A program made the position numbers and the translations under genes. Shown here piece after piece: positions 2,351-37,182 of a stretch of DNA of 37,719 nt. The stretch is from a virus, in IMG/VR virus record IMGVR_UViG_3300033148_003075, positions 1 through 37,719 of that record; one strand, written 5' to 3'. Numbering within the stretch: position 1 is the stretch's first letter; every line of letters begins with the position of its first letter. The notes under the pieces are model-generated. The model was given only the letters and a program-made list of their open reading frames with translations, was not told the origin of the DNA and did not search any database.

Positions 2351-4301
2351 CTAAAATGAAAAATAAACTCTCTTCTTTGTTGACATCAACTTAGCTTTTG
2401 GCGAACCAAGTTTTGTGGGTGGATAACCATAATCTTCTGCATAGGTTTTATTCCAAGCAATATACGAACCAGTAATACAGACATATTGTTTTTTTTCAAC
2501 TATCCGATTAAGGGTTCTGTTATATGACTGCTTGATTATAACCTCCGACACAAGAGAATGTAAATGCGACATTGTAATTATATCGCTATCTATCCACGCC
2601 GCCATATCCATAACCTTTTTCAATTTGGTGTGTTTGAAACGCTAATTTATTATCACTAACTTTTACTGTTAGTTTCTCGTGTTTTCACACAAGTTTGGAC
2701 TATATCTTCTATTGTATGTTTATTTTTAACAACTTTCCTAATTTTTTTATGGATGTGCCAATGGCAATTTGAGCAAACAATTATACAATTTTTAATCTCA
2801 TCTTTACCGCCAAATTGTTTAGGAAGTTTATGGTGACCAATTAAAGCTTCTTTATATTTATCATAATCGCAATACTCACACTTATATCCAATTTCCTTTT
2901 TTCTTTCCGCAACTATCGTGTCCCAACCACCCTTGTAAAATCTACTATTAAATCCTACTCCAAATACTTCTGTCCGATAACACCACTTCCTAACTTCTTC
3001 ACATTCATTTTGAGCATTTGGATATATTTTCTTGTATTCTTCCCAAGACAATTTATGTGCTTTCTTAATATGTGTGCTTAATCGTCTTCTTGCTAATTGA
3101 CCGCAAATCTCACATTTTACAAATAAATCAGAATTATTAAGTATTGTATCTCTATTTCTTAATTTGTCGTAGAATGGACTTCGTTCATCCATAAAACTAT
3201 GAAACTCTTGCCGACATCTAATACAACAAAACTTCTGTTTATCCCAACCCCTTTGTCTTTTAAGTATTTTCTTTTTACTACACCACAGGCACTTAATTTT
3301 TCTTTTATTTTTCATAGTAATTATATTTAGTATATTACATACGAAGTATAACATATCTATAAAAACATACAATAGTCAGGCGTGTAGTCTCTGAGGGTTC
3401 TTCGTATCCTTTCGGACTTAGAAGTCTTCCCTGCTGATTGCCCATATATCCTATAAATTTTCAAACCATTCAGCTCATCCTTTCGGATTACTGTTTAGGT
3501 TTTATAGGCTTTAGGGTGTTCCAGCATATAGCCTGAGAGTTTTAGGTGTGTCCCGTTTCATCAAGACCCACCACTTCCGTGAGTGGAATAAAGGGAATAT
3601 CTTATACCACCCACCGACAGGATTGTCCAACCAGCATATCCGAGATATGGAATTTTCAACTGCCGACAGATAATCTTGGAAATATCAATACTGGTTGCTT
3701 TGGTTATTCTTGCTGAGTGGTTTCCTGTAAGGTATCCAATTATAAGCCCTGCTTTTGCCAAAGGTTCAAGTAGGTCAATCACCGCTTCCATTTGGCGTTG
3801 AGGATTAAGGGTCTGCATATAAACACTATCCCCAACTGATGTATTCAACCCCGCTTCAATCATATCCCCGCCACAAAATACATAAATCCTTTTCTTAAGA
3901 GCATAATCCAACATTGCTCTCGCCTTTTCTAACTGGCATTGGGGATGTCCATAATGTAGCTATTGTTACTTGTATGGGTCATTTCTGCCCATATCTATAT
4001 GTTTCCATACAGTTCGGACTATATCTTCATCCTCCACTTTAAAGTGGAGGAGCTCGGCGTATAGTCTCTACGGGGTCAATTACGACTTCCCTCGGGATTA
4101 ACCTTTCGGCATTCCCCGATACAGCCAAGTTTTTTAATTACGATTACTCGTAATAGTGACCTACTATTAATCACTGAAAAAGATAAGTTCGGCATAACCT
4201 TTCCTACTTTTAACTTCCAGTTTTTGGCGGTTTATTTCTATTGGTCTGCCAAGTATCTTATCTTTTCCCGCATTTTCCGCAACAAATTCTTTTTTCAGCA
4301 T
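2351..4301 (-). CDS. Metallophosphoesterase split by two group I introns
   Basis: Proposed join on the minus strand: exon 1 4301-4170 (44 codons), exon 2 3959-3564 (132 codons), exon 3 2641-2351 (96 codons plus stop), giving 272 aa. Spliced, it carries the calcineurin-like phosphoesterase motifs in order: SDLH (D44, H46; the codons flanking the first intron), GGD (D76), GNH (N124, H125), STHGSGG (H171) and SHLH (H202, H204). No single exon has them all. Exon 1 starts after GGAGGAG and overlaps the zinc-protein gene at 4258-4476 by 44 nt. Members hydrolyse phosphoesters with two metal ions; phage versions may act on nucleic acids or nucleotides. Both junctions are in phase, and each 5' exon ends in U with a U-G pair to an internal guide. 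Confidence 0.85.
2642..3563 (-). other. Group I intron B (922 nt) with HNH gene
   Basis: The core elements are seen on the minus strand. The P7 5' strand contains CTCAGAGACTACACG (about 3381-3396), and its partner GAAGATATAGTCC lies at 2697-2710. The 5' exon end GGTGGGTCT pairs with GGACACACC in the intron, with one mismatch and a U-G pair at the splice site after 3564. The intron ends in G (2642), followed by exon 3. The HNH gene lies between the two P7 strands and its last codons run through the 3' P7 strand. Confidence 0.85.
2656..3315 (-). CDS. Intron-encoded HNH homing endonuclease
   Basis: 219 aa from the internal ATG at 3315 (MKNKRKIKCLWCSKKK). A longer open frame to 3372 exists, but it approaches the P7 element. 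An N-terminal zinc-finger-like segment has CLWC and a later CCIRC. A middle CEICG/LSTHIKKAH finger is typical of DNA-binding regions in these enzymes. The C-terminal HNH domain has CEYCD, then ALIGHHKLPKQFGGKDEIKN and VCSNCHWHIH. The final TIEDIVQT is read from the intron's own P7 sequence, a feature known for intron HNH proteins. It would cut intronless alleles of the phosphoesterase gene. Confidence 0.9.
   Translation of the reverse strand: MKNKRKIKCLWCSKKKILKRQRGWDKQKFCCIRCRQEFHSFMDERSPFYDKLRNRDTILNNSDLFVKCEICGQLARRRLSTHIKKAHKLSWEEYKKIYPNAQNECEEVRKWCYRTEVFGVGFNSRFYKGGWDTIVAERKKEIGYKCEYCDYDKYKEALIGHHKLPKQFGGKDEIKNCIIVCSNCHWHIHKKIRKVVKNKHTIEDIVQTCVKTRETNSKS
3960..4169 (-). other. Minimal group I intron A (210 nt, no ORF)
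   Basis: Exon 1 ends AGTGAT, which pairs with GTCACT in the intron (P1, six pairs, U-G at the splice site after 4170). The P7 strands are GTAGAGACTATACG (around 4059-4071) and AAGATATAGTCC (4016-4027), separated by a P8 hairpin of ten perfect pairs, CCTCCACTTT/AAAGTGGAGG (4031-4050). The intron ends AACAATAG, and exon 2 begins CTACATTATGG. Removing it fuses ...LIFFSD to LHYGHPQC, restoring motif I of the phosphoesterase. Confidence 0.9.
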
Positions 4302-4476: not shown

Positions 4477-4694
4477 TTCCGCCTCCGCTTAAAATGGTAA
4501 GTGTGGTCACTACAAGGAATTTTTATAATATTACATTTTTCACAGATAATCCTTTTCCAAAGACTTCCCTTAATTTCATATAATGTTCCACAATCGCATT
4601 TGAAATAAAGTTTGCCCTTTTTACAGTGACTACAAGTAAGAGATTTATTTTCATCGCAGAAACATTCAAAATTATCACAATGTATTTCAAGCAT
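4470..4694 (-). CDS. Zinc-ribbon protein, 74 aa
   Basis: The sequence has CFCDE, CSHCKKG, a CDCG turn and CEKC, then a basic C-terminus HFKRRRKC. The last part could contact nucleic acid. It starts at 4694, two nt after the stop of the HExxH protein gene, with AGGAGG upstream. No family recognised beyond a zinc ribbon. Confidence 0.75.
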   Translation of the reverse strand: MLEIHCDNFECFCDENKSLTCSHCKKGKLYFKCDCGTLYEIKGSLWKRIICEKCNIIKIPCSDHTYHFKRRRKC

Positions 4695-4696
4695 TT

Positions 4697-4978
4697 TTAC
4701 CTCCTTATCAGTGTTCCGATAATGTCCACCATTTCCTGAATTTCAGCGATACTTGACCTGTTTATTTTCTTGGTGGTCTTTGCGATTATCGCATTTTCGG
4801 ACAATGATGGATATTTACTATGCATAAACTCGTGGACTATTGCCTCAACAACTAACAGAGAAGCATTTAAAATAATCACTTCCTGCTCTTCGTTAATTTC
4901 AGCAACAGTGTTCTTGTTAATCCACTTGTTTATAATAAAGTATTTCTGTTCTTTTATCTGTTCTATTATTTCTTGCAT
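4697..4978 (-). CDS. HExxH small zinc metallopeptidase-like protein, 93 aa
   Basis: Residues near 50-60 read EAIVHEFMHSKYPSLSE. HEFMH matches the HExxH zinc-binding motif of metallopeptidases, with the catalytic Glu between two His ligands and a downstream Glu as possible third ligand. The start is the ATG at 4978 (MQEIIEQIKEQK), preceded by AGGAGGATTT. The longer frame to 4996 would use a weaker TTG. The size is small for an active peptidase, though compact phage members of this kind exist. The substrate is unknown. Confidence 0.65.
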   Translation of the reverse strand: MQEIIEQIKEQKYFIINKWINKNTVAEINEEQEVIILNASLLVVEAIVHEFMHSKYPSLSENAIIAKTTKKINRSSIAEIQEMVDIIGTLIRR

Positions 4979-6397: not shown

Positions 6398-6408
6398 ATA
6401 TTCCCTTA

Positions 6409-6572
6409 ATGCTGGCGGCGAAAGTAAATTGTATATCGCGAATAAAACTCTCGCATCTCGCCACTCTACTAATTTATGTTATTGTGTAAGACGAGAACAC
6501 CCGCTGGTCGTTTAGCAACCTTGGGCTACCTTATCCCCGTAGAGTGGGGGACTTACTCGGTCACGCCAGCAT
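6409..6572 (-). ncRNA. Structured RNA candidate E2, 164 nt
   Basis: Closed by the 9-bp perfect helix ATGCTGGCG/CGCCAGCAT (6409-6417 with 6564-6572). A second perfect 9-bp helix pairs CCACTCTAC (6461-6469) with GTAGAGTGG (6539-6547). On the minus strand ACTCTAC is also the loop of a CCCC/GGGG hairpin, so a pseudoknot is possible. Inside, GGTTG/CGACC pairs through a U-G that exists only on the minus strand. The core GAGTAAGTCCCC, then ACGGGGATAA, is shared with E1 and E3. It lies in a 299-bp gap between the attenuated promoter and the first gene, so transcription as a leader or stable RNA is likely. Confidence 0.6.
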
Positions 6573-6582
6573 AAAAAGAATA

Positions 6583-6645
6583 TAAAAGCCAACCGAAAGG
6601 GATAGAGGGTTGGCTGTATTAAAACGCTTACTATGTCCTATCCCT
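6583..6645 (-). promoter_or_regulatory. Transcription switch (attenuator), copy 2
   Basis: On the minus strand, starting at the predicted transcript 5' end: a = AGGGATAG (6638-6645), b = AGCCAACC (6608-6615), a' = CTATCCCT (6598-6605), b' = GGTTGGCT (6587-6594), then TTTTATATTCTTTTT. a pairs a' (8 bp) and b pairs b' (8 bp). The order a-b-a'-b' with only 3 nt between a' and b' makes the two helices mutually exclusive. b:b' plus the T-run is an intrinsic terminator, and a:a' would be the antiterminator. The same plan occurs at 35283-35364. Confidence 0.7.
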
Positions 6646-6651
6646 AATTTA

Positions 6652-6679
6652 ATTATAGACAACTGGTTAAGTTTGTCAA
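6652..6679 (-). promoter_or_regulatory. Consensus sigma70-type promoter
   Basis: -35 TTGACA (6674-6679), 16-bp spacer, -10 TATAAT (6652-6657), reading leftwards. The expected start is about 6645, exactly where arm a of the switch begins. It would drive E2 and the accessory genes below 6.4 kb. Confidence 0.85.
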
Positions 6680-6685
6680 TAGGAG

Positions 6686-6694
6686 TTATCCACA
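6686..6694. promoter_or_regulatory. Perfect DnaA-box sequence
   Basis: TTATCCACA (plus strand), the DnaA-box consensus, ends 6 bp upstream of the -35 box. The identical sequence occupies the identical position at 35413-35421. The spacing suggests a regulator, DnaA or another protein, contacting polymerase at both promoters. Confidence 0.6.
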
Positions 6695-6903: not shown

Positions 6904-9417
6904 TTATTTAAATAAACTCCTAAACCATTCTATAAATTTCAAAACAGCACTTTGATTTTGTTCCAGTTCCGCAATTCTTGCTTCTAAATCTCCGCCAACT
7001 AATATCTTTTTTTCCACTTCTAACTCCTCAATTCTTTTAATTAACTGTTGGATTGCCCTTGTGTTTAATTGGACGCTTGCCCCTAAATCTCTACCGACAA
7101 AAGTATATGATGTTTCTTCAATAATTGGGACTTCTTTCGTTCTCGCCTCATTGACTAATACTGTGGTCGTGGCTTGCCCGTCCCAAACATCTTCATATTC
7201 CGCTTCGTATTTAATTATCTCTACGCCAACCTGACTGGTTGAAATGGCTGATGTTTCTACTCTTACTCCTGCTGGTAGTGTGGCGTGGTCAATTTTCGCC
7301 CAATCACCTTTTTCTGTTCCTTGTTCGTGTTTAATGTTTTTAATAGCAGACACAGCGTCTCCGATATATTTAGGTGAATACTCAATATATTGGTCAGCTA
7401 AAACACTGCCAGCTACTGATAATTTATGAGATGGTGTTGTTGTGCCGATGCCGACATTGCCGCCAGACAAATCCCCGAATATTATCCCCCCTATATTTAA
7501 ATGATTATTTGTTGTCGCTGTTGGTGGGTCAGCATTATATCCAAGAATAATATTATCAACTCCTGTTGTGATTAAATCCCCTGCTTGATAGCCAATTAAA
7601 ATATTTCTCCTGTCTGCTGATGTGTCAATATTATAACCTGCTTGATAACCTATTGATATTCCTTGTCTCGGTCCTCTTGACTTGTAGCCAATCGCAACTC
7701 CATAATCCCACCCAGTGCTTCCTGTCCCAACCGCAACTCCATAATTCTTTGCATTGGCAAGTCTCCCAAAAGCCATCCCATCATTATAACCAGATGCAGA
7801 AATTCCAATCGCCACGCCTGATGCAAAAGCAGCAGTGTTCGCTCCGATTGCCACACCTTGATCATAAGCCCTTGATTTATATCCTATTTGAATATTGTTT
7901 GTATCTACAACTCCAATATCATTCCCCACCCAATCTGTCCCATTAAAAACAAATGTCTTAATACACTGGCTGTAAATATCTTCTTTCAAAACTGCTCCCT
8001 GATAAACTCTTAAATAATTATCAGAATTATAAGTATCAGTATTTTTAATAATAAATATATCCCCTGCTGTTGCCGTCGATGTTGCCAGAGTAATTGTCCT
8101 GTTCCCGTTATTAGAATTTAGGTGCTGATACATTTCATCAGTTCCAACAGTCAAAGTTTTATCTCCTGTTAATGTTTCAACATTTATTCCAGCGTTATAA
8201 TTATTAGCACTAACACTACCTGCCACTGTTAAACTGTCTGAAATATGAAGAATTGTAGATGTCGCATAGGTGGTCGTTGCTCTGTTAAAGTCAATGTTTC
8301 CCAAACTGTTTATGTAGCCAACCTCTGTATTTGAGTAATTTCTATAAGAATTTTTATTTGCTCCCGCGTCATCACCCATTCTTACGAATAAATCTTTATC
8401 GGCTGCTGTTGCTCTATGTTTGGTATGTCTGATATGAATTAAAACATCGCCTAAACTTGCGTGAGCATATTCTACATCGCCAATATGTTTTAAGGCTCCT
8501 GTTGCTGGAGTTGTTGTCACCATACTGCCTCCAGTTGAAAGATATAGATTATCACCATCAGCCCAAGCCGAAGTATCAAAATTATCTAATTGTCCAGCGA
8601 CTCTAACAAGCATTGTTTGACCAGATGTCTTACTTTCAGCCGCCAATCCAATCACATCACCCATTCCCCAAATTGTATTGTCAGCAAGTGCGAATTGGAC
8701 ATTAGTTCCTACCGCACCTGAAACATAAACTGCCTGCCCTTTTGTTATAGTTTCAGTCGCTTTACCAGAAATAGTCAAAGCGGAAGCAGCCGCCGCTCCT
8801 ATATCAGTTAAATTAGAGCCATCGCCATAAATAGTGACACCTGTAATATCGCCTGCTCCTGTGATACTTCCATCCACCGTTAATGCCCCGCCAATGTGTC
8901 CGTCATCTTGAACAAAAAGCTCTGTCGTTGAAGCGGTTCCGCCGATGTAAAATGAACCTGTTGTTGTGGTGTTGCCGTCTATTCGGAAGTCAGCCCCTAT
9001 TGAAGATGAGGCGGTGATCATAATTCCTTTTGTGGAGGTGGGAACCATAGCGTCTGCGGCACTATCGTATTCCCAAGCGGAAGCACCTGCTCCGCCTGTG
9101 TCAGCGTCTGCCTGCCAAGTTAAAGCCCCAGATCCGTCTGTTTTTAGGATTTGATTGGCAGAGCCGTCTTCCATTGGGATAGTCCAAGTTGAGGTCACCA
9201 TTGGGTTGCTGTCGTGTCCTATTAAAATAGTGCTACTGGCAATAGTGCTTATTCCTGTGCAACCTTGATATGGATAGCAGACCGTCGCTCCTACTTGAGG
9301 TTCTTCTACTTCTGTCGTCTTAAAACTAAAAAGGTCTAAAACATCGCCTAAAAATCCAGCGTGGGCTGTTCCTACTAAACCAAGTAATAAAATTGTGATG
9401 ATAAGTATTTTTTTCAT
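6904..9417 (-). CDS. Large fibre/adhesin, 837 aa, Sec signal, YadA-like repeats, S74-like end
   Basis: Residues 1-20 form a clear signal peptide with an AHA cleavage site. Residues about 85-150 (ANQILKTDGSGALTWQ...) are shared with the 371-aa protein at 17069. Residues about 508-630 contain GVAIG / GISIGYQAG repeats like the head of YadA-type trimeric adhesins. GNVGIGTTTPSHKLSVAG (653-670) precedes a region ending in GRDLGASVQLNTRAIQQLIK and a coiled coil, as in the self-cleaving/trimerisation end domains of fibres (S74-like). The likely role is host adsorption as a trimeric fibre. A secretion signal is odd for a cytoplasmically assembled virion protein. AGGAAATAAT precedes the ATG at 9417. 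Confidence 0.75.
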   Translation of the reverse strand: MKKILIITILLLGLVGTAHAGFLGDVLDLFSFKTTEVEEPQVGATVCYPYQGCTGISTIASSTILIGHDSNPMVTSTWTIPMEDGSANQILKTDGSGALTWQADADTGGAGASAWEYDSAADAMVPTSTKGIMITASSSIGADFRIDGNTTTTGSFYIGGTASTTELFVQDDGHIGGALTVDGSITGAGDITGVTIYGDGSNLTDIGAAAASALTISGKATETITKGQAVYVSGAVGTNVQFALADNTIWGMGDVIGLAAESKTSGQTMLVRVAGQLDNFDTSAWADGDNLYLSTGGSMVTTTPATGALKHIGDVEYAHASLGDVLIHIRHTKHRATAADKDLFVRMGDDAGANKNSYRNYSNTEVGYINSLGNIDFNRATTTYATSTILHISDSLTVAGSVSANNYNAGINVETLTGDKTLTVGTDEMYQHLNSNNGNRTITLATSTATAGDIFIIKNTDTYNSDNYLRVYQGAVLKEDIYSQCIKTFVFNGTDWVGNDIGVVDTNNIQIGYKSRAYDQGVAIGANTAAFASGVAIGISASGYNDGMAFGRLANAKNYGVAVGTGSTGWDYGVAIGYKSRGPRQGISIGYQAGYNIDTSADRRNILIGYQAGDLITTGVDNIILGYNADPPTATTNNHLNIGGIIFGDLSGGNVGIGTTTPSHKLSVAGSVLADQYIEYSPKYIGDAVSAIKNIKHEQGTEKGDWAKIDHATLPAGVRVETSAISTSQVGVEIIKYEAEYEDVWDGQATTTVLVNEARTKEVPIIEETSYTFVGRDLGASVQLNTRAIQQLIKRIEELEVEKKILVGGDLEARIAELEQNQSAVLKFIEWFRSLFK

Positions 9418-15624: not shown

Positions 15625-17069
15625 TATTTTAGTGCTTGCTTATATGGTGTTCCAAATACTTCTACTCTTTTAATTTTCACATTTCCAGCGTTGAAGTTAA
15701 ATTTAAGTTGGACATCTTCTACATCAAAAGTGCTGTGTAGGGTTATCCGCCTAACTGCTCCGTGGTCTGCGAAAGATGCTGTCCCAAACACCGTAGGAGC
15801 ATCTCCACTGTCTGAATTTATATCTACTCTCAAACTATCCCCCGAAGCAAGGTCTGTCCCTAAAATAATTTTAATCTGTTCAATTTTCGTCTTTTCTCGT
15901 AATGAAATAAAATTTGTTGTGGCGGATAGACCTGTTGCTCCACCTGTCACCACATCTTGACGATATAATTTACTATCATTTGTTCCAAAGTAAATAGTTC
16001 CTCTTTTTGCTGTAGTGGCAAGTAAGTGAACCCCCTGTGCCGCAGCCCAGCCAGTAAAGGGATTAAAAACGGCTTTGGGGTATCCTGGAAGCGGTGAGCC
16101 GTAAGATGAGATATAGTTAGTCCTTCTCCCCACCAAGAGTTGTGTCCCTTCTAAAACATCGCAGGCGGCGTGTTGTCCGTAAAGGCAGTCCACACCTTCT
16201 ACTACTTTAACTGGCGGAGAGCCATAAGAGAATTTATAAATCCCTCCGCTTGTAATGGCGTAATTCCAACCGCCCATTTTCTTAATTGAAGAAATGTGTG
16301 GCTCTGGAATGAACCACTCTTTTGAATAATAGTCATCAAAAGTATTCCAAAAACAAACCTTGCTCCTACCCATTATTGAAACATCACCCAAGTTTTGAGT
16401 TACCCCTATCACTAAGTTAAAACCATCATCACTAAAACAAAGTATCCTGTAATCCGCTTCTAAACTTGTCATTACATTTTGAGTAAAAACTGGGTTGATA
16501 CCGCCAGATATATCGTGGAGTTCGTTATCATCCCCGACAAAAATCCTTCCGCCGAAAGGATACATCGGGTGATAGACAGAATCGTTTAATTTATTTGCCC
16601 CCGACCAGTCGTTGTCCCAACCCGAACTCGTATCAAAGGGTTTTGTTCCTGTTTCGGTACACATTCCTATTTGAGTAGTCTGGGCGTAAAACAGGTTAGT
16701 ATTGCCATAAATCACCATTCCATTCGCGGGGTTTGTAATCTTATTCGCTCCGCTTCTTTCGTTGGTGATAGTGTTGTCTGATAAATCAACAACATAAAAA
16801 TTACCAGCGTTTCCGAATATATAAAGATAACCTGTGTTGGCAGCGGTTGCTTCTGATACCCAAACCCTTGGGACATCTACGACTACTGCTCCTGTCATAT
16901 CTACGGGTGCTGCGGATGTTTGTAAAAGCCCGAAATCATTACTTGACCTGCGTGGGTTGATTAAAGGCGATACTCCTGTGGCTGAAAAGAAAAGTCCTCT
17001 CAATCCGTGAGATACTTCACTCACTCCGCTTAAAAAATCTTTTGTTGTTAGTTCAAATAGTTTCTTCAT
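15624..17069 (-). CDS. Beta-propeller-like tail protein, 481 aa
   Basis: Repeated blade-like segments such as GYLYIFGNAGNFYVVDLSDN, GGRIFVGDDNELHDISGG and RGTIYFGTNDSKLYRQD, spaced about 60-100 residues apart, suggest a beta-propeller. A C-terminal beta-sandwich (KIEQIKIILGTDLASGD) follows. Proteins of this type occur as stabilisation or hub proteins in podovirus-like tails. It overlaps the upstream 371-aa gene by one base. Confidence 0.6.
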   Translation of the reverse strand: MKKLFELTTKDFLSGVSEVSHGLRGLFFSATGVSPLINPRRSSNDFGLLQTSAAPVDMTGAVVVDVPRVWVSEATAANTGYLYIFGNAGNFYVVDLSDNTITNERSGANKITNPANGMVIYGNTNLFYAQTTQIGMCTETGTKPFDTSSGWDNDWSGANKLNDSVYHPMYPFGGRIFVGDDNELHDISGGINPVFTQNVMTSLEADYRILCFSDDGFNLVIGVTQNLGDVSIMGRSKVCFWNTFDDYYSKEWFIPEPHISSIKKMGGWNYAITSGGIYKFSYGSPPVKVVEGVDCLYGQHAACDVLEGTQLLVGRRTNYISSYGSPLPGYPKAVFNPFTGWAAAQGVHLLATTAKRGTIYFGTNDSKLYRQDVVTGGATGLSATTNFISLREKTKIEQIKIILGTDLASGDSLRVDINSDSGDAPTVFGTASFADHGAVRRITLHSTFDVEDVQLKFNFNAGNVKIKRVEVFGTPYKQALK

Positions 17070-18184
17070 TAGTCCTTTCTAAATATCTGAACATCCGCTG
17101 CTCTTAATGATGTATCTGTTGTTGAATCGGCTTTAGCTTTAATGTCTATTACTTGGTCAACCGAAGTATCAATATGTAATTCTGTTGATGTTGAAAGATA
17201 TGTTTGGTCGCCCGTAGAACCATATTCGTGCCATATATTCATAACTGCCCATTGTAGATTTTCACTTCCTCTATTATAAATATTTACTGTTCCGTGCCAA
17301 TATCTATTTTCCTGAGAACCTGTTTTTATATGAGTTGTTGTCGCAATCGTTTCTCCGCCAAACAAAGCACTAATATAATGCGTATCGTTTGTAAAACTTA
17401 ATCCACTCATAGTTAATCTTACTAATCCATTTGCCCCCATATCTCCACCCTTAATAGTAAAACTTCCAATAGTTGCCTCAGCACCTGTTGATGTTGCTGT
17501 TGTGTTATCAACAAGATAAGATGTCATTATTTCGTGGGAGTGCCAATAATCCGCAAGAGATGTTTTGCCGAAAGTTAGGGCAGTAAATGCTGTTCCTGTT
17601 GCGGTCGCTCCTAACCCTGAAATAGTCACTCCGTCAATGTTAAGTCCTCCACCAAACGAAGAAGACGCTGTGATATAAATTCCAAGAGTTGATGTAGTAA
17701 CCATAGCGTCCGTTCCGCTATTATATTCCCAAGCAGACGAACCACCAACTTCCGACTGCCAAGTCACAGCACCCGAGCCGTCTGTTTTTAATATCTGATT
17801 AGCGTTTCCGTCTGTGTTAGGCAGATAATAAGCCCCTATTGTTAAACTATCCGAAATATAAAGAAATGTTGTAGAAGCATTACCAATAACATTCAAATCG
17901 TCTGAAATTTTTAATTTTCCAATCGTTGAAGAAGAAGTATCGCCGAGTATCAGCCCAAATGTCGGGCTTGATGAAGTATAGAGATAGTCAGACCCAGCCG
18001 ACCAGTGAATAGCGTTGTTGAGAGAAGCCAAATCAGCGTTATAAATCGCTGGCAAATCAGAAACTTGGTCAGTTGTTAAAAGAGTGGTAATAGTCGCCCC
18101 GAAATGGTCTTCTTGGATAGCGATAACTCCAAGAACCAATCCGACTGTTAATGTGATAATACTTAAATATGTTATTAGTTTCAT
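17069..18184 (-). CDS. Fibre-like protein, 371 aa, N-terminal membrane anchor
   Basis: Residues 4-22 are hydrophobic (LITYLSIITLTVGLVLGVI), a signal or anchor. Residues about 122-185 (GNANQILKTDGSGAVTWQ, SAWEYNSGTDAMV) are clearly homologous to residues 85-150 of the 837-aa fibre. The C-terminus is a beta-rich domain ending ADVQIFRKD. It may be a second adhesin built from the same cassette. The start overlaps the stop of the 63-aa gene (ATGA). Confidence 0.65.
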   Translation of the reverse strand: MKLITYLSIITLTVGLVLGVIAIQEDHFGATITTLLTTDQVSDLPAIYNADLASLNNAIHWSAGSDYLYTSSSPTFGLILGDTSSSTIGKLKISDDLNVIGNASTTFLYISDSLTIGAYYLPNTDGNANQILKTDGSGAVTWQSEVGGSSAWEYNSGTDAMVTTSTLGIYITASSSFGGGLNIDGVTISGLGATATGTAFTALTFGKTSLADYWHSHEIMTSYLVDNTTATSTGAEATIGSFTIKGGDMGANGLVRLTMSGLSFTNDTHYISALFGGETIATTTHIKTGSQENRYWHGTVNIYNRGSENLQWAVMNIWHEYGSTGDQTYLSTSTELHIDTSVDQVIDIKAKADSTTDTSLRAADVQIFRKD

Positions 18185-20002: not shown

Positions 20003-21745
20003 TTACGCTACTGTAATATCGTAGAGAACCGCTTCGTGATTGTGCCAACTGGCAAATTCCCAATCCATACGGCTAACAACACCTGTGCCTGATAAAGGAC
20101 CGTCCGCTGTGGCTGGTTCTTTATCAATTACAATCTGTCCGTTAGTCGCTGTGAGAATACCCAAGTGGAACAGGTTTCTAATTCCGCCAAACAAGTGTCC
20201 TGAAGCGTGGCTGTTGGAAACATAATGGTACATACCCATAAAGTAGTATCCATCATCTCCTACGCCATCTTTCAGGGCTTTGTCAGCAAGAACGAAGCCA
20301 TTCAAATTTGTTACTCCTCATAATGAGGGGGAAAACCGCTTCGGATTTTCCTCTCCGCCTTCTAACTTAATTAAGTATTTTTGAACCTTTATGCATATTT
20401 TCTTTTGCCCAGAGTGGTTGTAAATTTGTATAATGAAATGCTTTTTTCTGTTCTTCCGCTTTTGTTAAGTCAAAACTGGATAATGGTATTATGTGGTCTA
20501 TATGCCAACCATAAAACCCATAATTATCCCAAGTCATTCCGTCTTGAAACTGCTTTTCAAGATACACTTTTAATTCTTTAATCGTAATTCCAATCAATTT
20601 TTCTGTTCTGTCAGATTTATATCCGTGTTTTAGTGCGTCATACACTCTGGCTCTAACAACTGAAGCAAGTTTCTCATAAGGTCTTTTTCTTCTCTGTTGA
20701 TATATTTTTTTAGCATTCTTTCTGTGCCACTCTCTCATTCGTTCTCGGTGATACTTCCTAAACTTGTCTGTATTTCTGTATTCTCTCATATAGGCATTCT
20801 GATAATCCCTATACTTTTTATACTTTTCTGGGTCTTGCTTCATTTTCTCATAAGCCTTTTTTGATTGAGCTATTGCCTTTTTCGGATTTTCAGCATATTT
20901 TCTGCGTTTATATTCACGGTCATATTTTCTAATTTTCTCTTGTTTATTCATACTCTAATTATATATGAGTAAACTTCTCCAGTCAATACTTTAATTAAGT
21001 TTTTAATGTACAATTATAGCGAAGTTCAGACTGTCGCTTCTCCTTTTCGGGAGTCTCTCCACTCAGTCGTTCAGCGTCCCGTTGCCAAAATCGGCAATGG
21101 GTTCGCCCCTGTTATCCGTTGTATTCGGATGTCCAAGTCAATAAGGAAAGATTTAATCAGACCAATAGTTCTTTTACAAGCCTGACAGAATTGCTCAAGC
21201 AATTCCAAGTCAGCATACCTCCAAACAATAAACGCTCCGTGCTGTTTCATTAAATTCTTACCATTCGCTTCTCCGATTTCCCTCTTAACGCCCCTGATGA
21301 TGTCGTCAATGTTGGAGGCGGAAACTGTGATGTTTCCTGCTGCTCCGCCAATCTGACTGTTATCAAAGTCAGTCCACATAGCGTGGTTGGCTAACATATC
21401 AGTTTCGTAGTATTCATTGATTAACTGACCTTGTAAGTCAGCAATTTCCATTTGACTGGCATATGGGGTTTGGGCTTCGTCAGCCCTGTCAATGAACATT
21501 GGGATAATTTGGGATTGGTTAATGGTAATGCTGTCGGTGGTGACTGCCTGTGTTTGGTGGGTATAAGCCGTTCCTCTGGTGTGGGACTGCAAAGAAGGAG
21601 TTGTTGAACGATATGGGTTGTAGAACACCCTTGAATTGGTGTATTGAACCCTGCAAATTTCCTTCCAGCAAGTCGGATAATCAAGCCGCTCCTGAAGTTT
21701 TACACTCCACTCTTCAGGATATAAAAATGTATTCGCAACTGTAAT
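20003..21745 (-). CDS. Major capsid protein split by a group I intron
   Basis: Proposed join: exon 1 21745-21179, exon 2 20302-20003, about 288 aa. The reading frame passes through LYPEEWSVKLQERLDYP, TRGTAYTHQT, MFIDRADEAQ and EQFCQA, then after splicing NGFVLADKALKDGV, HYVSNSHASGHLFGGIRNL and GTGVVSRMDWEF, a series I recognise as an HK97-fold capsid protein. No ATG, GTG or in-frame usable TTG lies upstream of a GTG at 21628, yet the conserved sequence clearly extends to about 21745. I place the start provisionally at ATT 21745. An in-frame TTG at 21778 is followed by TAG at 21764-21766. Confidence 0.85.
20367..20951 (-). CDS. Intron-encoded HNH homing endonuclease, 194 aa
   Basis: A very basic, helical N-terminus (DREYKRRKYAENPKKAIA and similar RExY repeats to about residue 90) is followed by KLIGITIKELKVYLEKQF, then the HNH domain WHIDHIIPLSSFDL ... 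YTNLQPLWAKENMHKGSK. This is the usual layout of phage intron HNH enzymes. It has its own promoter (20958-20986), and the ATG lies 6 bp after the -10 box, so its mRNA would be leaderless. Confidence 0.9.
   Translation of the reverse strand: MNKQEKIRKYDREYKRRKYAENPKKAIAQSKKAYEKMKQDPEKYKKYRDYQNAYMREYRNTDKFRKYHRERMREWHRKNAKKIYQQRRKRPYEKLASVVRARVYDALKHGYKSDRTEKLIGITIKELKVYLEKQFQDGMTWDNYGFYGWHIDHIIPLSSFDLTKAEEQKKAFHYTNLQPLWAKENMHKGSKILN
20958..20986 (-). promoter_or_regulatory. Promoter for the capsid-intron HNH gene
   Basis: -35 TTGACT (20981-20986), 17-bp spacer, -10 TATAAT (20958-20963), then TAGAGT and the ATG of the HNH gene. The start would fall on or next to the ATG. It lets the endonuclease be expressed independently of late transcription. 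Confidence 0.75.
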
Positions 21746-29998: not shown

Positions 29999-30358
29999 TC
30001 ATAGCAACTCCTCTAATTTTTTAATCTGTTCTTTATACCAGCCTAATGTTGTTTTGACTATTTTGTTGCGTTCTCTTTTAATAAAAAAAAACCAGTGTTG
30101 CGGTTTGTTGGCAACCATTCTCTCATAAATAATAGGGTCGGCTTTTGTATGATGAGTAAAATGGCAAGAACGACAGATTGATATTCCGTTTTTTAATTCA
30201 TACCGCAAAGATGAAGCAAGAGATTTCGGGACAAAATGATGAACCTCGCTCGCAGGTTTTCCACAACATTCGCACTTTGGATTGAGTTTAAGCCCTACTT
30301 GCTGATATAAGCGGTCGGCTTTGTTGCGAGCGGTCTTGATAGGATTTCTCTTTGCCAT
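29999..30358 (-). CDS. HNH/NinG-like nuclease, 119 aa
   Basis: CECCGKPASEVHHFVPKSLA, then GISICRSCHFTHH. This is a compact treble-clef HNH: Cys pair, HH and CxxCH with a following H. It resembles phage NinG-like or packaging-associated HNH proteins. It is not in an intron: no group I elements flank it and its neighbours are intact. Possible roles are helping terminase cleavage or recombination. Confidence 0.75.
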   Translation of the reverse strand: MAKRNPIKTARNKADRLYQQVGLKLNPKCECCGKPASEVHHFVPKSLASSLRYELKNGISICRSCHFTHHTKADPIIYERMVANKPQHWFFFIKRERNKIVKTTLGWYKEQIKKLEELL

Positions 30359-33246: not shown

Positions 33247-33540
33247 TTAAAATCCTATTTCTTTTGTGTTTATTTTGTTTGGAATTCCGCTCTCTCTATT
33301 TTTTTCCGTAGAGCATTCATCTTCTTGACCTGCGACTTCTGGACTGCTTGCCAAAATTTTGTTTTGAGCTTTAATTTTTTCATCTAAATCCTTTATTATT
33401 TTAATCCAATCAAGGTCGTTGGTTTCTTGATACGCCCTTAAAGCCGATAATCTAACTTCTAAAAACATTTTTTTATTTTGGAGGCGGGTTTCTTCTTCTG
33501 ATTCACCCTCCAATAAGACGCCGCTGGGTGTTCTCAACAT
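33247..33540 (-). CDS. Hypothetical helical protein, 97 aa
   Basis: MLRTPSGVLLEGESEEETRL, then a charged helix and a C-terminus rich in Glu/Asn. It overlaps the helicase 3' end by 38 nt in another frame. No family recognised. Possibly a helicase partner by position. Confidence 0.6.
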   Translation of the reverse strand: MLRTPSGVLLEGESEEETRLQNKKMFLEVRLSALRAYQETNDLDWIKIIKDLDEKIKAQNKILASSPEVAGQEDECSTEKNRESGIPNKINTKEIGF

Positions 33541-34411
33541 ATTTTTGTTCTTTAATTTCTTCGCTAAATTTATCGTTTAAGTAAATCAATGGTATCCAGC
33601 CAGTTATCCCATTCCAACGATTTTTGGCTACGAATAACATTGCCCTGTTATCCCAATTCCGTTTGTCTTCTGTTAGTTTGCGGTCAATAAATAATACATA
33701 ATCCGCTTCACAAGCAACCATTCCACTATCCCGCAATGAAGTTAGGTCTGGCATTTCTTCCTCGCTAAACCTTACTTTTTTTGTGTGGGCTATTAAGAAT
33801 ATAATTAGGTTATAGGTTATTGAAATTCTTTTTAGTTCTCGCATTATACTGCCAATAAACAATGAAGCATTGCCTGACATCTGCCCCATATCAAGCAAGT
33901 AATGGAGGTGGTCAATCATTACAACTCTTGTTTGGTATTTCGCCACGCCTTCTAAAATTCTTTGTTCAAGCCAATCCATCTTTGAAGTTTTGTGTTGTTT
34001 GGGAATATAGGCAAAATCTGGCATATCTGTTTCAAACTTTTTAAGAAATTCTTTTGGCGGGACTTCGTAGGTAAAAAATAGCGTTGGGATATTTTGTTTT
34101 GAAAATGCTTTTAAAAATGTTTGAAGCAAGGCAGTTTTTCCATTGCCCGTAGTCCCTGATACAATAACTACATTCCCATTTCTAAACCCGTCTGTTTTTT
34201 TATCTAACAATGGGATTTGGGTTTTAATCCCGTCATCGTCTTTTTGTTGGGATAATTCTTCTGCTAACTTCTTAAAACTAACAACCCTATCAACATTGTC
34301 GTAATTAGCGAAACCTGATAATAATCTTTCACGCTCGGCTACCGCTTTTTGCTCTTCGCTTGTAAGAGTAAGATTTTCTTCTGTTTTTTTTATTTCCTCC
34401 TTAATATCCAT
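33503..34411 (-). CDS. DnaB-type replicative helicase (ATPase domain), 302 aa
   Basis: RecA-like core: Walker A GTTGNGKT (86-93), the Glu motif FFTYEVPPKEF and Walker B VVMIDHLHYLL (D167). These are features of the DnaB C-terminal family. It lacks the N-terminal primase-interacting domain of cellular DnaB, having only about 70 residues before the core. As a hexamer it would unwind the replication fork. It lies directly after the initiator gene, and its ATG overlaps the region where that gene's shifted frame ends. Confidence 0.85.
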   Translation of the reverse strand: MDIKEEIKKTEENLTLTSEEQKAVAERERLLSGFANYDNVDRVVSFKKLAEELSQQKDDDGIKTQIPLLDKKTDGFRNGNVVIVSGTTGNGKTALLQTFLKAFSKQNIPTLFFTYEVPPKEFLKKFETDMPDFAYIPKQHKTSKMDWLEQRILEGVAKYQTRVVMIDHLHYLLDMGQMSGNASLFIGSIMRELKRISITYNLIIFLIAHTKKVRFSEEEMPDLTSLRDSGMVACEADYVLFIDRKLTEDKRNWDNRAMLFVAKNRWNGITGWIPLIYLNDKFSEEIKEQKYVENTQRRLIGG

Positions 34412-35115
34412 AAATTTCTTTTTTAAGGTTTAATGTTTTTGTTTCTTCATCTTCCCATTGTTGCTTATTGAGATAAGTTGCTGGATATGGAATAAATTGT
34501 CCGTTGTCCTTTTTCCAGAGAGGGGCTTGGGGAGAGTTTCTGAAATGCTTTTAAGGCAGTCCTTCCATCTTTCTTTTTTGGATAAGCAGAATAGAAACTA
34601 TTAAAATTAGGGTATTTCTTTAGTAATTCTGAAAATTCAAGTTTATCGTCCTCTTTATCTTTCTTTATCTTTCTTGTTCTTCTTATGCTTTCTTTCAGCA
34701 CCACCTCATTTGCTTTTGACACCACCTCGTTTTCTTTCAACACCACCTCGTCTTTAAGGTGGTTTCTTTCAGCACCACCTTGATAATGTTCATTATTAAG
34801 TTTCCAAATATCATTTACTTTATAACAATCAACTATTTGTTCACCTTGTTTTGTTAAAACTTTCTTCTTTCCAATATAAGTAATCCATTTTTTAGATAAA
34901 AGATATTTTTTTGATTTTTGATACGCTTTATATCCTATCTTCATTTGTTTAATAAAGTATCTATATCCTGCTTCGCAAATACCGCCATCACCAGCAATTC
35001 TTTTCATTTGAAGATATAACGATTGGTCATTTGCTGTTGAATGATTAGTGATAAAATTTGGAATAATTGTAAAGTATTTTTTATCTCCGCTTTCGTCAAA
35101 ATATTTTTGTGCCAT
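34401..35115 (-). CDS. Replication initiator/replisome organizer with apparent +1 frameshift
   Basis: The N-terminal winged-helix region (YFTIIPNFITNHSTANDQSL, then ICEAGYRYFIKQMKIGYKA) matches phage replisome-organizer proteins. The middle is KDEVVLKENEVVSKANEVVL, encoded by iteron-like repeats. The continuous frame ends at 34465 with LSPSPSLEKGQR..., but from TGG at 34515-34517 the +1 frame reads WKKDNGQFIPYPATYLNKQQ then WEDEETKTLNLKKEIYGY, stop at 34401. That is the family's conserved C-terminus. About 15-20 residues before it seem missing, so a small deletion or error broke the frame. Confidence 0.75.
34692..34782. repeat. Four iteron-like repeats, candidate replication origin
   Basis: CTTTCARCACCACCTYG-like repeats start at 34692, 34713, 34734 and 34766 (21, 21 and 32 bp apart). 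A reverse-oriented AAGGTGGT half-site lies between the last two. They sit inside the initiator gene, as the lambda O-gene iterons do. DnaA boxes are elsewhere (35413). Confidence 0.65.
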
Positions 35116-35117
35116 AG

Positions 35118-35264
35118 TTAGTTATGTTCTGAAATGTGGTCAATATAATTTATTTCAAAATAAACTACCTGTTCACACTTAACACAAATATAGAATATAA
35201 ATCCAGTATTTTCATCTATAGCAAGTGGTCGCCAGCAATGAATATGTTTTTCTCTTTTTTTCAT
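35118..35264 (-). CDS. Small zinc-knuckle-like protein, 48 aa
   Basis: MKKREKHIHCWRPLAIDENT, then FYICVKCEQVV: Cys 10 and CxxC, plus His residues. It is the first gene after the switch at 35283-35364 and precedes the initiator gene. AAAGGC lies upstream of the ATG. No family recognised. Confidence 0.6.
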   Translation of the reverse strand: MKKREKHIHCWRPLAIDENTGFIFYICVKCEQVVYFEINYIDHISEHN

Positions 35265-35282
35265 AGTTTTGCCTTTCTAATG

Positions 35283-35364
35283 GAAACAAAAGAGCCAACC
35301 GACCACGATGAAGAGGTTTTTTGGCTGGCTCATTCGTTTCAATTAAATTTACCTTCATCGTGGT
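35283..35364 (-). promoter_or_regulatory. Transcription switch (attenuator), copy 1
   Basis: On the minus strand: a = ACCACGATGAAG (35353-35364), b = GAGCCAGCC (35323-35331), a' = CTTCATCGTGGT (35302-35313), b' = GGTTGGCTC (35292-35300), then TTTTGTTT. a:a' is 12 perfect pairs; b:b' is nine pairs including a G-U that exists only in this strand. a' and b' are 1 nt apart, so both helices cannot form together. b:b' with the T-run is an intrinsic terminator placed before the replication genes. It matches the copy at 6583-6645 in order and in the b' sequence. Confidence 0.75.
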
Positions 35365-35378
35365 TTTCATTACTACTA

Positions 35379-35406
35379 ATTATAAAGGTTCTGTTTTGGG
35401 TGTCAA
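35379..35406 (-). promoter_or_regulatory. Consensus promoter of the replication operon
   Basis: -35 TTGACA (35401-35406), 16-bp spacer, -10 TATAAT (35379-35384), start near 35372. It drives the switch, the zinc protein, initiator and helicase. Confidence 0.88.
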
Positions 35407-35412
35407 GCGGGT

Positions 35413-35421
35413 TTATCCACA
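35413..35421. promoter_or_regulatory. Perfect DnaA-box sequence
   Basis: TTATCCACA on the plus strand, separated by exactly 6 bp from the -35 box, as at 6686-6694. It could tie replication-gene expression to host DnaA activity. Confidence 0.6.
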
Positions 35422-37154: not shown

Positions 37155-37182
37155 ATTATACATACTTCAACATCCCTGTCAA
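37155..37182 (-). promoter_or_regulatory. Consensus promoter, leaderless start
   Basis: -35 TTGACA (37177-37182), 16-bp spacer, -10 TATAAT (37155-37160), then AGAATT and ATG. The expected start coincides with the ATG at 37148. It has no DnaA box or switch, unlike the other two consensus promoters. Confidence 0.85.

Follow-up and report, generated by a model that had tools for sequence, protein, structure and literature searches.

The virus genome studied here carries two copies of a small module, each of which is probably (judging from the sequence, with about three chances in four) a promoter joined to a short, bistable attenuator of transcription that lets the polymerase read through by default and switches off when its first arm, a, is sequestered. 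The window, by which we mean the whole stretch of DNA analysed (37,719 nt, a 37.7-kb virus record whose main genes lie on the minus strand), holds both modules on the minus strand, at 6694-6583 (module 1) and 35421-35284 (module 2), 28.7 kb apart. They have in common the order TGTGGATAA, N6, TTGACA, N16, TATAAT, four arms a-b-a'-b' and a T-run; a pairs with a', and b with b'.

Module 1 begins with a perfect DnaA box, TGTGGATAA (6686-6694), 6 nt upstream of the -35 element of a 12/12 promoter, TTGACA-N16-TATAAT (6652-6679; -35 at 6679-6674, -10 at 6657-6652). Arm a, AGGGATAG (6638-6645), starts 6 nt past the -10, close to where transcription is predicted to begin. The 5' side of the predicted terminator is arm b, AGCCAACC (6608-6615); arm a', CTATCCCT (6598-6605), lies in the predicted terminator loop, 3 nt before b', and b', GGTTGGCT (6587-6594), together with the T-rich tract TTTATATTCTTTTT covers 6578-6594. 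The DnaA box of module 2, again a perfect TGTGGATAA (35413-35421), is also placed 6 nt upstream of the -35 of a 12/12 promoter of the same form (35379-35406; -35 at 35406-35401, -10 at 35384-35379). It is followed by arm a, ACCACGATGAAG (35353-35364), arm b, GAGCCAGCC (35323-35331), which makes one G-U pair to b', arm a', CTTCATCGTGGT (35302-35313), 1 nt before b', and b', GGTTGGCTC (35292-35300), with the T-run TTTTGTTT (35284-35300 for both). All these features are read on the minus strand, and every element named in the earlier note was present in both copies. That note had stated that order and spacing repeat exactly, which holds for the arm order and for the 6 and 16 bp of the promoter part; the spacings in the RNA differ between modules 1 and 2 (-10 to a, 6 vs 14 nt; a to b, 22 vs 21; b to a', 2 vs 9; a' to b', 3 vs 1), as does the length of the a:a' helix (8 vs 12 bp). 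The sequence bears out that a and a' are different in the two copies and that b' is common; GGTTGGCT is the only arm sequence that the two modules share, and this sharing has no counterpart in other pairs of modules within one genome.

The promoter parts are unusual in the window. TTGACA-N15-18-TATAAT occurred three times against 0.07 expected, TTATCCACA occurred three times against 0.40 expected, and TGTGGATAA was found 4-10 nt before TTGACA at only two places in the record, namely the two modules. The third perfect promoter, TTGACA-N16-TATAAT at 37155-37182 (minus strand), has no module attached, so a module does not come with every strong promoter in this phage. We also noticed that the next ATG lies about 6 nt past the -10 of this third promoter, as in a leaderless mRNA of a small ORF. 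When the whole window was shuffled (n=300; E<=-34, promoter at least 9/12), 0.0033 modules per strand were obtained, compared with the two observed, and no shuffle gave a module with a promoter of 11/12 or better. When the shuffle was confined to the leader, leaving promoter and terminator intact, the result was P=0.011 for module 1 and P<0.0005 for module 2. Module 1 by itself is weak to modest evidence, and the strength of its case derives from module 2 and the relatives.

The search for relatives began with the box-promoter pattern in viral contigs, which led to L064, a distant phage whose DnaB is 37% identical; immediately ahead of rep and dnaB it carries the same order of arms, unrelated in sequence. 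A DnaB profile search gave 53 loci. Modules were identified by an energy-based scanner for a-b-a'-b' and a T-run behind a sigma-70-like promoter; the T-run is obligatory, so the terminator reading is partly built into these counts. A covariance model was unsuitable, as no single model can represent alternative helices that cross and whose sequences are unrelated; the dedicated two-helix scanner was used instead, controlled by shuffles and by strand. A separate covariation count was omitted as circular, since the modules had been picked by their pairing.

Upstream of the dnaB relatives (E<=-35, promoter at least 9/12) 16 modules were found against 0.0 per shuffle replicate; the reverse strand of the same regions gave two, both representing one real divergent module of L077. 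A scan of 1.18 Mb on both strands (E<=-35, promoter at least 10/12) yielded 16 modules against 0.0 in shuffled sequence, and ten fetched contigs (E<=-33, promoter at least 9/12) yielded 15 against 0.0; both sets overlap the dnaB-upstream loci and are not independent of them. A second profile search supplied 36 new loci, none of which had been used in tuning. With fixed criteria (E<=-33, promoter at least 9/12), three modules were detected in them, against none on the reverse strand, one downstream and 0.0 in shuffles, so that the module is rarer there than in the discovery loci. Other clear cases fall a little short of the promoter cut-off, among them L236 with CTCTCGCTA/ATCCGCCT/TAGCGAGAG/AGGCGGAT-T6. 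This locus seems to hold three modules (at 2571, 4959 and 5716), with a'-b' linkers of 0, 0 and 2 nt and lower-scoring promoters. At the strict cut-off, 16 of the 87 dnaB loci with enough upstream sequence carry a module (13 distinct). As only these and 3 of the 36 new loci pass, the device is common yet not universal among phages with a related DnaB; in lambda, P4, two Marinitoga phages and a Geobacillus phage (154 kb) the scanner found no module.

Leader-only shuffles rejected chance singly for most modules, with G010 and L089 failing, and a few modules (L086) have weak tails. L019 was left out of the counts, its arms being AT-rich and in a different order; at 4506-4960 this locus has a DnaA-box promoter and a terminator, and then about 270 nt of structured-looking non-coding sequence. 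Two modules per genome were seen in the window, G002 (a divergent pair), G003, G005 and G006, and in every one of these genomes a and a' differ between the copies. Site-specific inversion between a and a' was rejected by reasoning, as the arms differ even within one genome. The close homologues of L070 that we sought for covariation within a module were all identical copies, and no close homologues with a compensatory change within one module were found. The earlier note had named a lack of further phage examples as a refutation, and many relatives do carry the module. Two results support the view that the architecture rather than the sequence has been selected: distant phages keep the order of the arms while the sequences differ, and the predicted energies of the two helices are balanced.

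Across the tabulated modules, a starts 5-29 nt past the -10, in half of them within 5-12 nt, that is at about +1, the transcription starts being predictions from the -10. The a'-b' linker measures 0-7 nt. Two size classes occur for the b-a' linker, 0-4 and about 6-25 nt, and those of the longer class often seem, by eye, to contain a small hairpin of their own. The whole leader is about 50-120 nt long. The most compact case is G005_2, where helices of 11 and 9 bp are combined with a b-a' linker of 1 nt and an a'-b' linker of 0 nt. Such linkers are too short for a pseudoknot, therefore a:a' and b:b' cannot coexist and a two-state switch results; two compatible helices forming a pseudoknot RNA are ruled out wherever both linkers are 0-3 nt. 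The helices are also close in predicted energy: the median difference |E(a:a')-E(b:b')| was 3.1 kcal/mol (permutation P=0.008, 22 modules), and the values for a:a'/b:b' in the window were -12.1/-12.7 and -16.7/-17.9. When folding of the growing transcript was simulated with 12 nt hidden in the polymerase, 19 of 24 modules, including both window modules, showed a:a' without b:b' at the end of the T-run. Since a:a' is favoured at this point, read-through is predicted unless a is occupied. For the other five (G003_1, L084, G010, L145 and L143), which have long b:b' helices or strong tails, the prediction is a change to b:b' by the time the T-run is complete.

In the bistable attenuator that we propose, RNA polymerase would start at or just before arm a, and the emerging a' would pair with a as an antiterminator, enclosing b in the loop. 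The a:a' helix would keep b' off b, no terminator would form and the polymerase would read into the operon. If a were sequestered, b and b' would pair into an intrinsic terminator and transcription would end at the T-run, which in most relatives would be just before the first start codon. Arm a might be sequestered by other molecules of the same leader RNA, or by a ribosome translating a leader ORF in some of the replication modules. Module 2 would meter the replication operon (rep, dnaB) and module 1 a separate unit headed by a structured-looking non-coding stretch. We infer that both termination and read-through take place and are subject to regulation.

The position of the modules is consistent with this proposal. 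In most relatives the gene next to the T-run looks like an initiator of the winged-helix type (assigned with weak Pfam support, mainly by position and by eye), and DnaB follows. From the end of b' to the first start codon there are about 9-40 nt in most replication modules, and in G005_1, G003_1, L079 and L083 b' ends 11-22 nt before the initiator-like ORF. Behind module 2 of the window the first conventional ORF (48 aa, 35118-35264, minus strand, with AAAGG upstream) stands between the module and the initiator-like gene, a replication initiation protein-like gene (phrog_270, 34465-35115, minus strand); the next gene downstream encodes a DnaB-like replicative helicase (33503-34411, minus strand). 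In G001 and G003 a module precedes an HNH-endonuclease-like gene, recognised by eye from the translation; G001 is the closest relative when structural proteins are compared, several of them giving 69-78%. No convincing ORF was seen for about 190 nt or more after module 1, G005_2, L084, L145 and L143.

The ORF-free stretch of about 180 nt downstream of module 1 (6400-6575, minus strand) is predicted to form a long-range closed RNA, with z=-2.8 for the folded part. It had no Rfam match and no similar sequence in the fetched loci, and near module 1 Rfam gave nothing at E<=5 except one sub-threshold chance match. Behind the second module of the L064 phage, some 400 nt (L171 12960-13408, minus strand) look structured, with many hairpins and no Rfam match at the gathering score. 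L143, a terminase-related phage locus, has a match to the abiF RNA at 50-86 (Rfam RF03085, 42.7 bits) near two tRNA genes.

The same positions could suit an element of translation or mRNA stability, in which b:b' beside the start codon would block ribosomes and a:a' at +1 would shield the 5' terminus of the mRNA; many modules have 9-22 nt between the end of b' and the start codon, and in half of the modules a starts at about +1. However, Shine-Dalgarno-like sites, where present, come after b' and thus outside the hairpin, and a T-run follows b' in most modules (a requirement of the scanner, yet often 4-7 T). Moreover, in five modules the downstream sequence is free of ORFs for about 190 nt or more, and we regard this reading as rather improbable.

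Some modules may be attenuated through a leader peptide, a ribosome on an arm-spanning ORF near the 5' end covering a so that the terminator forms. In 8 of the 24 modules, against 1.9 expected from shuffles, an ORF begins with an ATG between +1 and +23 and stays open beyond a', although the start-site positions are predictions. Module 2 is one of the eight: its ORF of 52 aa (35212-35370, minus strand) has its ATG at about +3, spans all four arms and may possibly encode a near-leaderless leader peptide, and in G004 the stop codon of the ORF overlaps the next start codon. No such ORF exists, however, in module 1 or in any module before endonuclease genes or non-coding stretches, and the peptides have no common run of residues beyond the Phe encoded by the T-run. 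As a general explanation it seems unlikely. Attenuators of the trp type are alike in having mutually exclusive helices before an operon and, for some modules, a spanning ORF, but most modules are without such an ORF. The segments of trp-type leaders share strands between the alternative hairpins.

A few plasmids and P4-like phages are known to meter a replication initiator through an attenuator. The closest likeness is to the leaders of pT181 repC and pIP501 repR, where a terminator-like stem-loop lies just upstream of the start of a replication initiator gene and an upstream segment prevents the terminator (PMC5703833, PMC4981023). If the window modules were driven in the same way, a counter-transcript from the same locus would cover a and trigger termination; the placement just upstream of the initiator start codon and the logic of terminator prevention, both as in pT181 (PMC5703833), speak for this. 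Against it, the best antisense promoter score averaged 4.3 in the 24 modules and 5.1 in shuffles (a sequence test, from a to 40 nt past b'), so there was no excess and no antisense promoter was detected. In addition, the pre-emptor of the plasmids pairs with the 5' arm of the terminator, whereas a pairs here with the separate loop stretch a' and no base is shared. The leaders are also shorter, only about 50-120 nt, and the modules occur in several copies per genome and also before endonuclease genes and non-coding stretches. Antisense RNA, which normally controls attenuators of this sort, is therefore an improbable driver.

Control by the leader RNA itself is conceivable, with the odds against it. 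The terminated leader would expose a and a' and pair in trans with leaders still being transcribed from the same module, and termination would rise with the concentration of the RNA, and so of the genome, as with P4 CI RNA. In P4 immunity (CI RNA, seqA, seqC) the replication genes are restrained by premature termination in the leader, caused by pairing of a leader-derived RNA (PMC4825925). The negative search for antisense promoters fits such feedback, as does the finding that the arms differ within a genome, which self-specific control would predict. The arm words were searched in the contigs of 16 modules, available in full or large part (L079, L083, L084, L086, L089, L122, L143 and L145 were left out), and in 11 of the 16 they did not occur outside their own module, apart from b words in the window and G008. 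Isolated matches of 8-10(11) nt were seen for G005_1 (a, b), G003_1 (b), G002_1 (a), G002_2 (a) and G010 (a, b), and could be due to chance. On the other side, CI RNA has two targets while each arm here has one, and some termination would be required before the RNA accumulates. The P4 RNA is moreover processed and its two targets, seqA and seqC, flank it, whereas the modules have two one-to-one arm pairs and an intrinsic terminator; the P4 genome is among those without a module. The figures behind our wording for antisense, leader-peptide and self-RNA control are sub-cases of the bistable attenuator and are not to be added to its own.

The module would thus work by a logic like that of pT181/pIP501 and P4, yet is no member of either, because the tested features (an antisense RNA, a pre-emptor on the terminator arm, two flanking targets) were not found in it. 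A more far-reaching proposal, which we put forward as speculative and rather unlikely, is a class of RNA-only, self-specific attenuators of uncultured phages. Here a released leader would act in trans by pairing with newly made leaders from its own module, thereby raising termination, each operon would sense its own transcript or genome copy number without a protein or an antisense gene, and phages could fit several insulated devices with private arm codes.

The arm words also bear on the claim of the earlier note that one trans-acting control governs the two phage operons. At the RNA level this was not borne out, as a and a' differ between the copies and the arms are mostly confined to their module. 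A separate regulatory RNA carrying an arm is likewise unlikely, because no convincing arm copies were found elsewhere in the searched contigs. One DNA-level factor for both promoters is possible, since the DnaA box is identically placed in both window modules. A box near the -35, in either orientation, was also found in four modules of three relatives (both modules of G005, G003_1 and G009), which resemble DnaA-box promoters in this respect; it is absent from most other modules, and orientation and spacing vary where it is present. Across IMG/VR, TGTGGATAA lies 4-8 nt upstream of consensus sigma-70 promoters in 49 unique cases, compared with 5 for a scrambled box (one scramble). A DnaA input at the promoter level is plausible for this phage and a few relatives only. 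It would plausibly be the only shared trans control, yet it is not part of the module elsewhere.

The nut sites of lambda and put sites of HK022 are promoter-proximal RNA elements that set read-through of early phage operons. They modify the polymerase for distant terminators, whereas the modules described here have one local terminator and competing base pairing, and lambda has no module. The module, about 50-120 nt long, recurs with freely changing sequence across diverse uncultured phages, sometimes twice per genome. If the proposed mechanism is correct, it would supply a natural set of mutually insulated RNA switches and offer a handle on the timing of replication in these phages. It would also be a case of structure kept while the sequence turns over completely, of a kind missed by searches with sequence or covariance models.

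At the gathering score, Rfam found only a group I intron (RF00028, 75 bits, 3995-4179, minus strand) and a tRNA in the whole window. HNH-like ORFs were recognised by eye at 2656-3372, 20367-20951 and 29999-30358. The window rep protein found no relatives as a query. Concerning the host, matches of DnaB to named phages or plasmids were below 30% identity, and the four hits among genome contigs belonged to MAGs from unrelated groups. Predicted secreted or tail proteins at 6904-9417 and 17069-18184 (minus strand) contain GIGTTTPS-like stretches, which we take to be of a kind seen in Patescibacteria and which may be a lead on the host of the phage.
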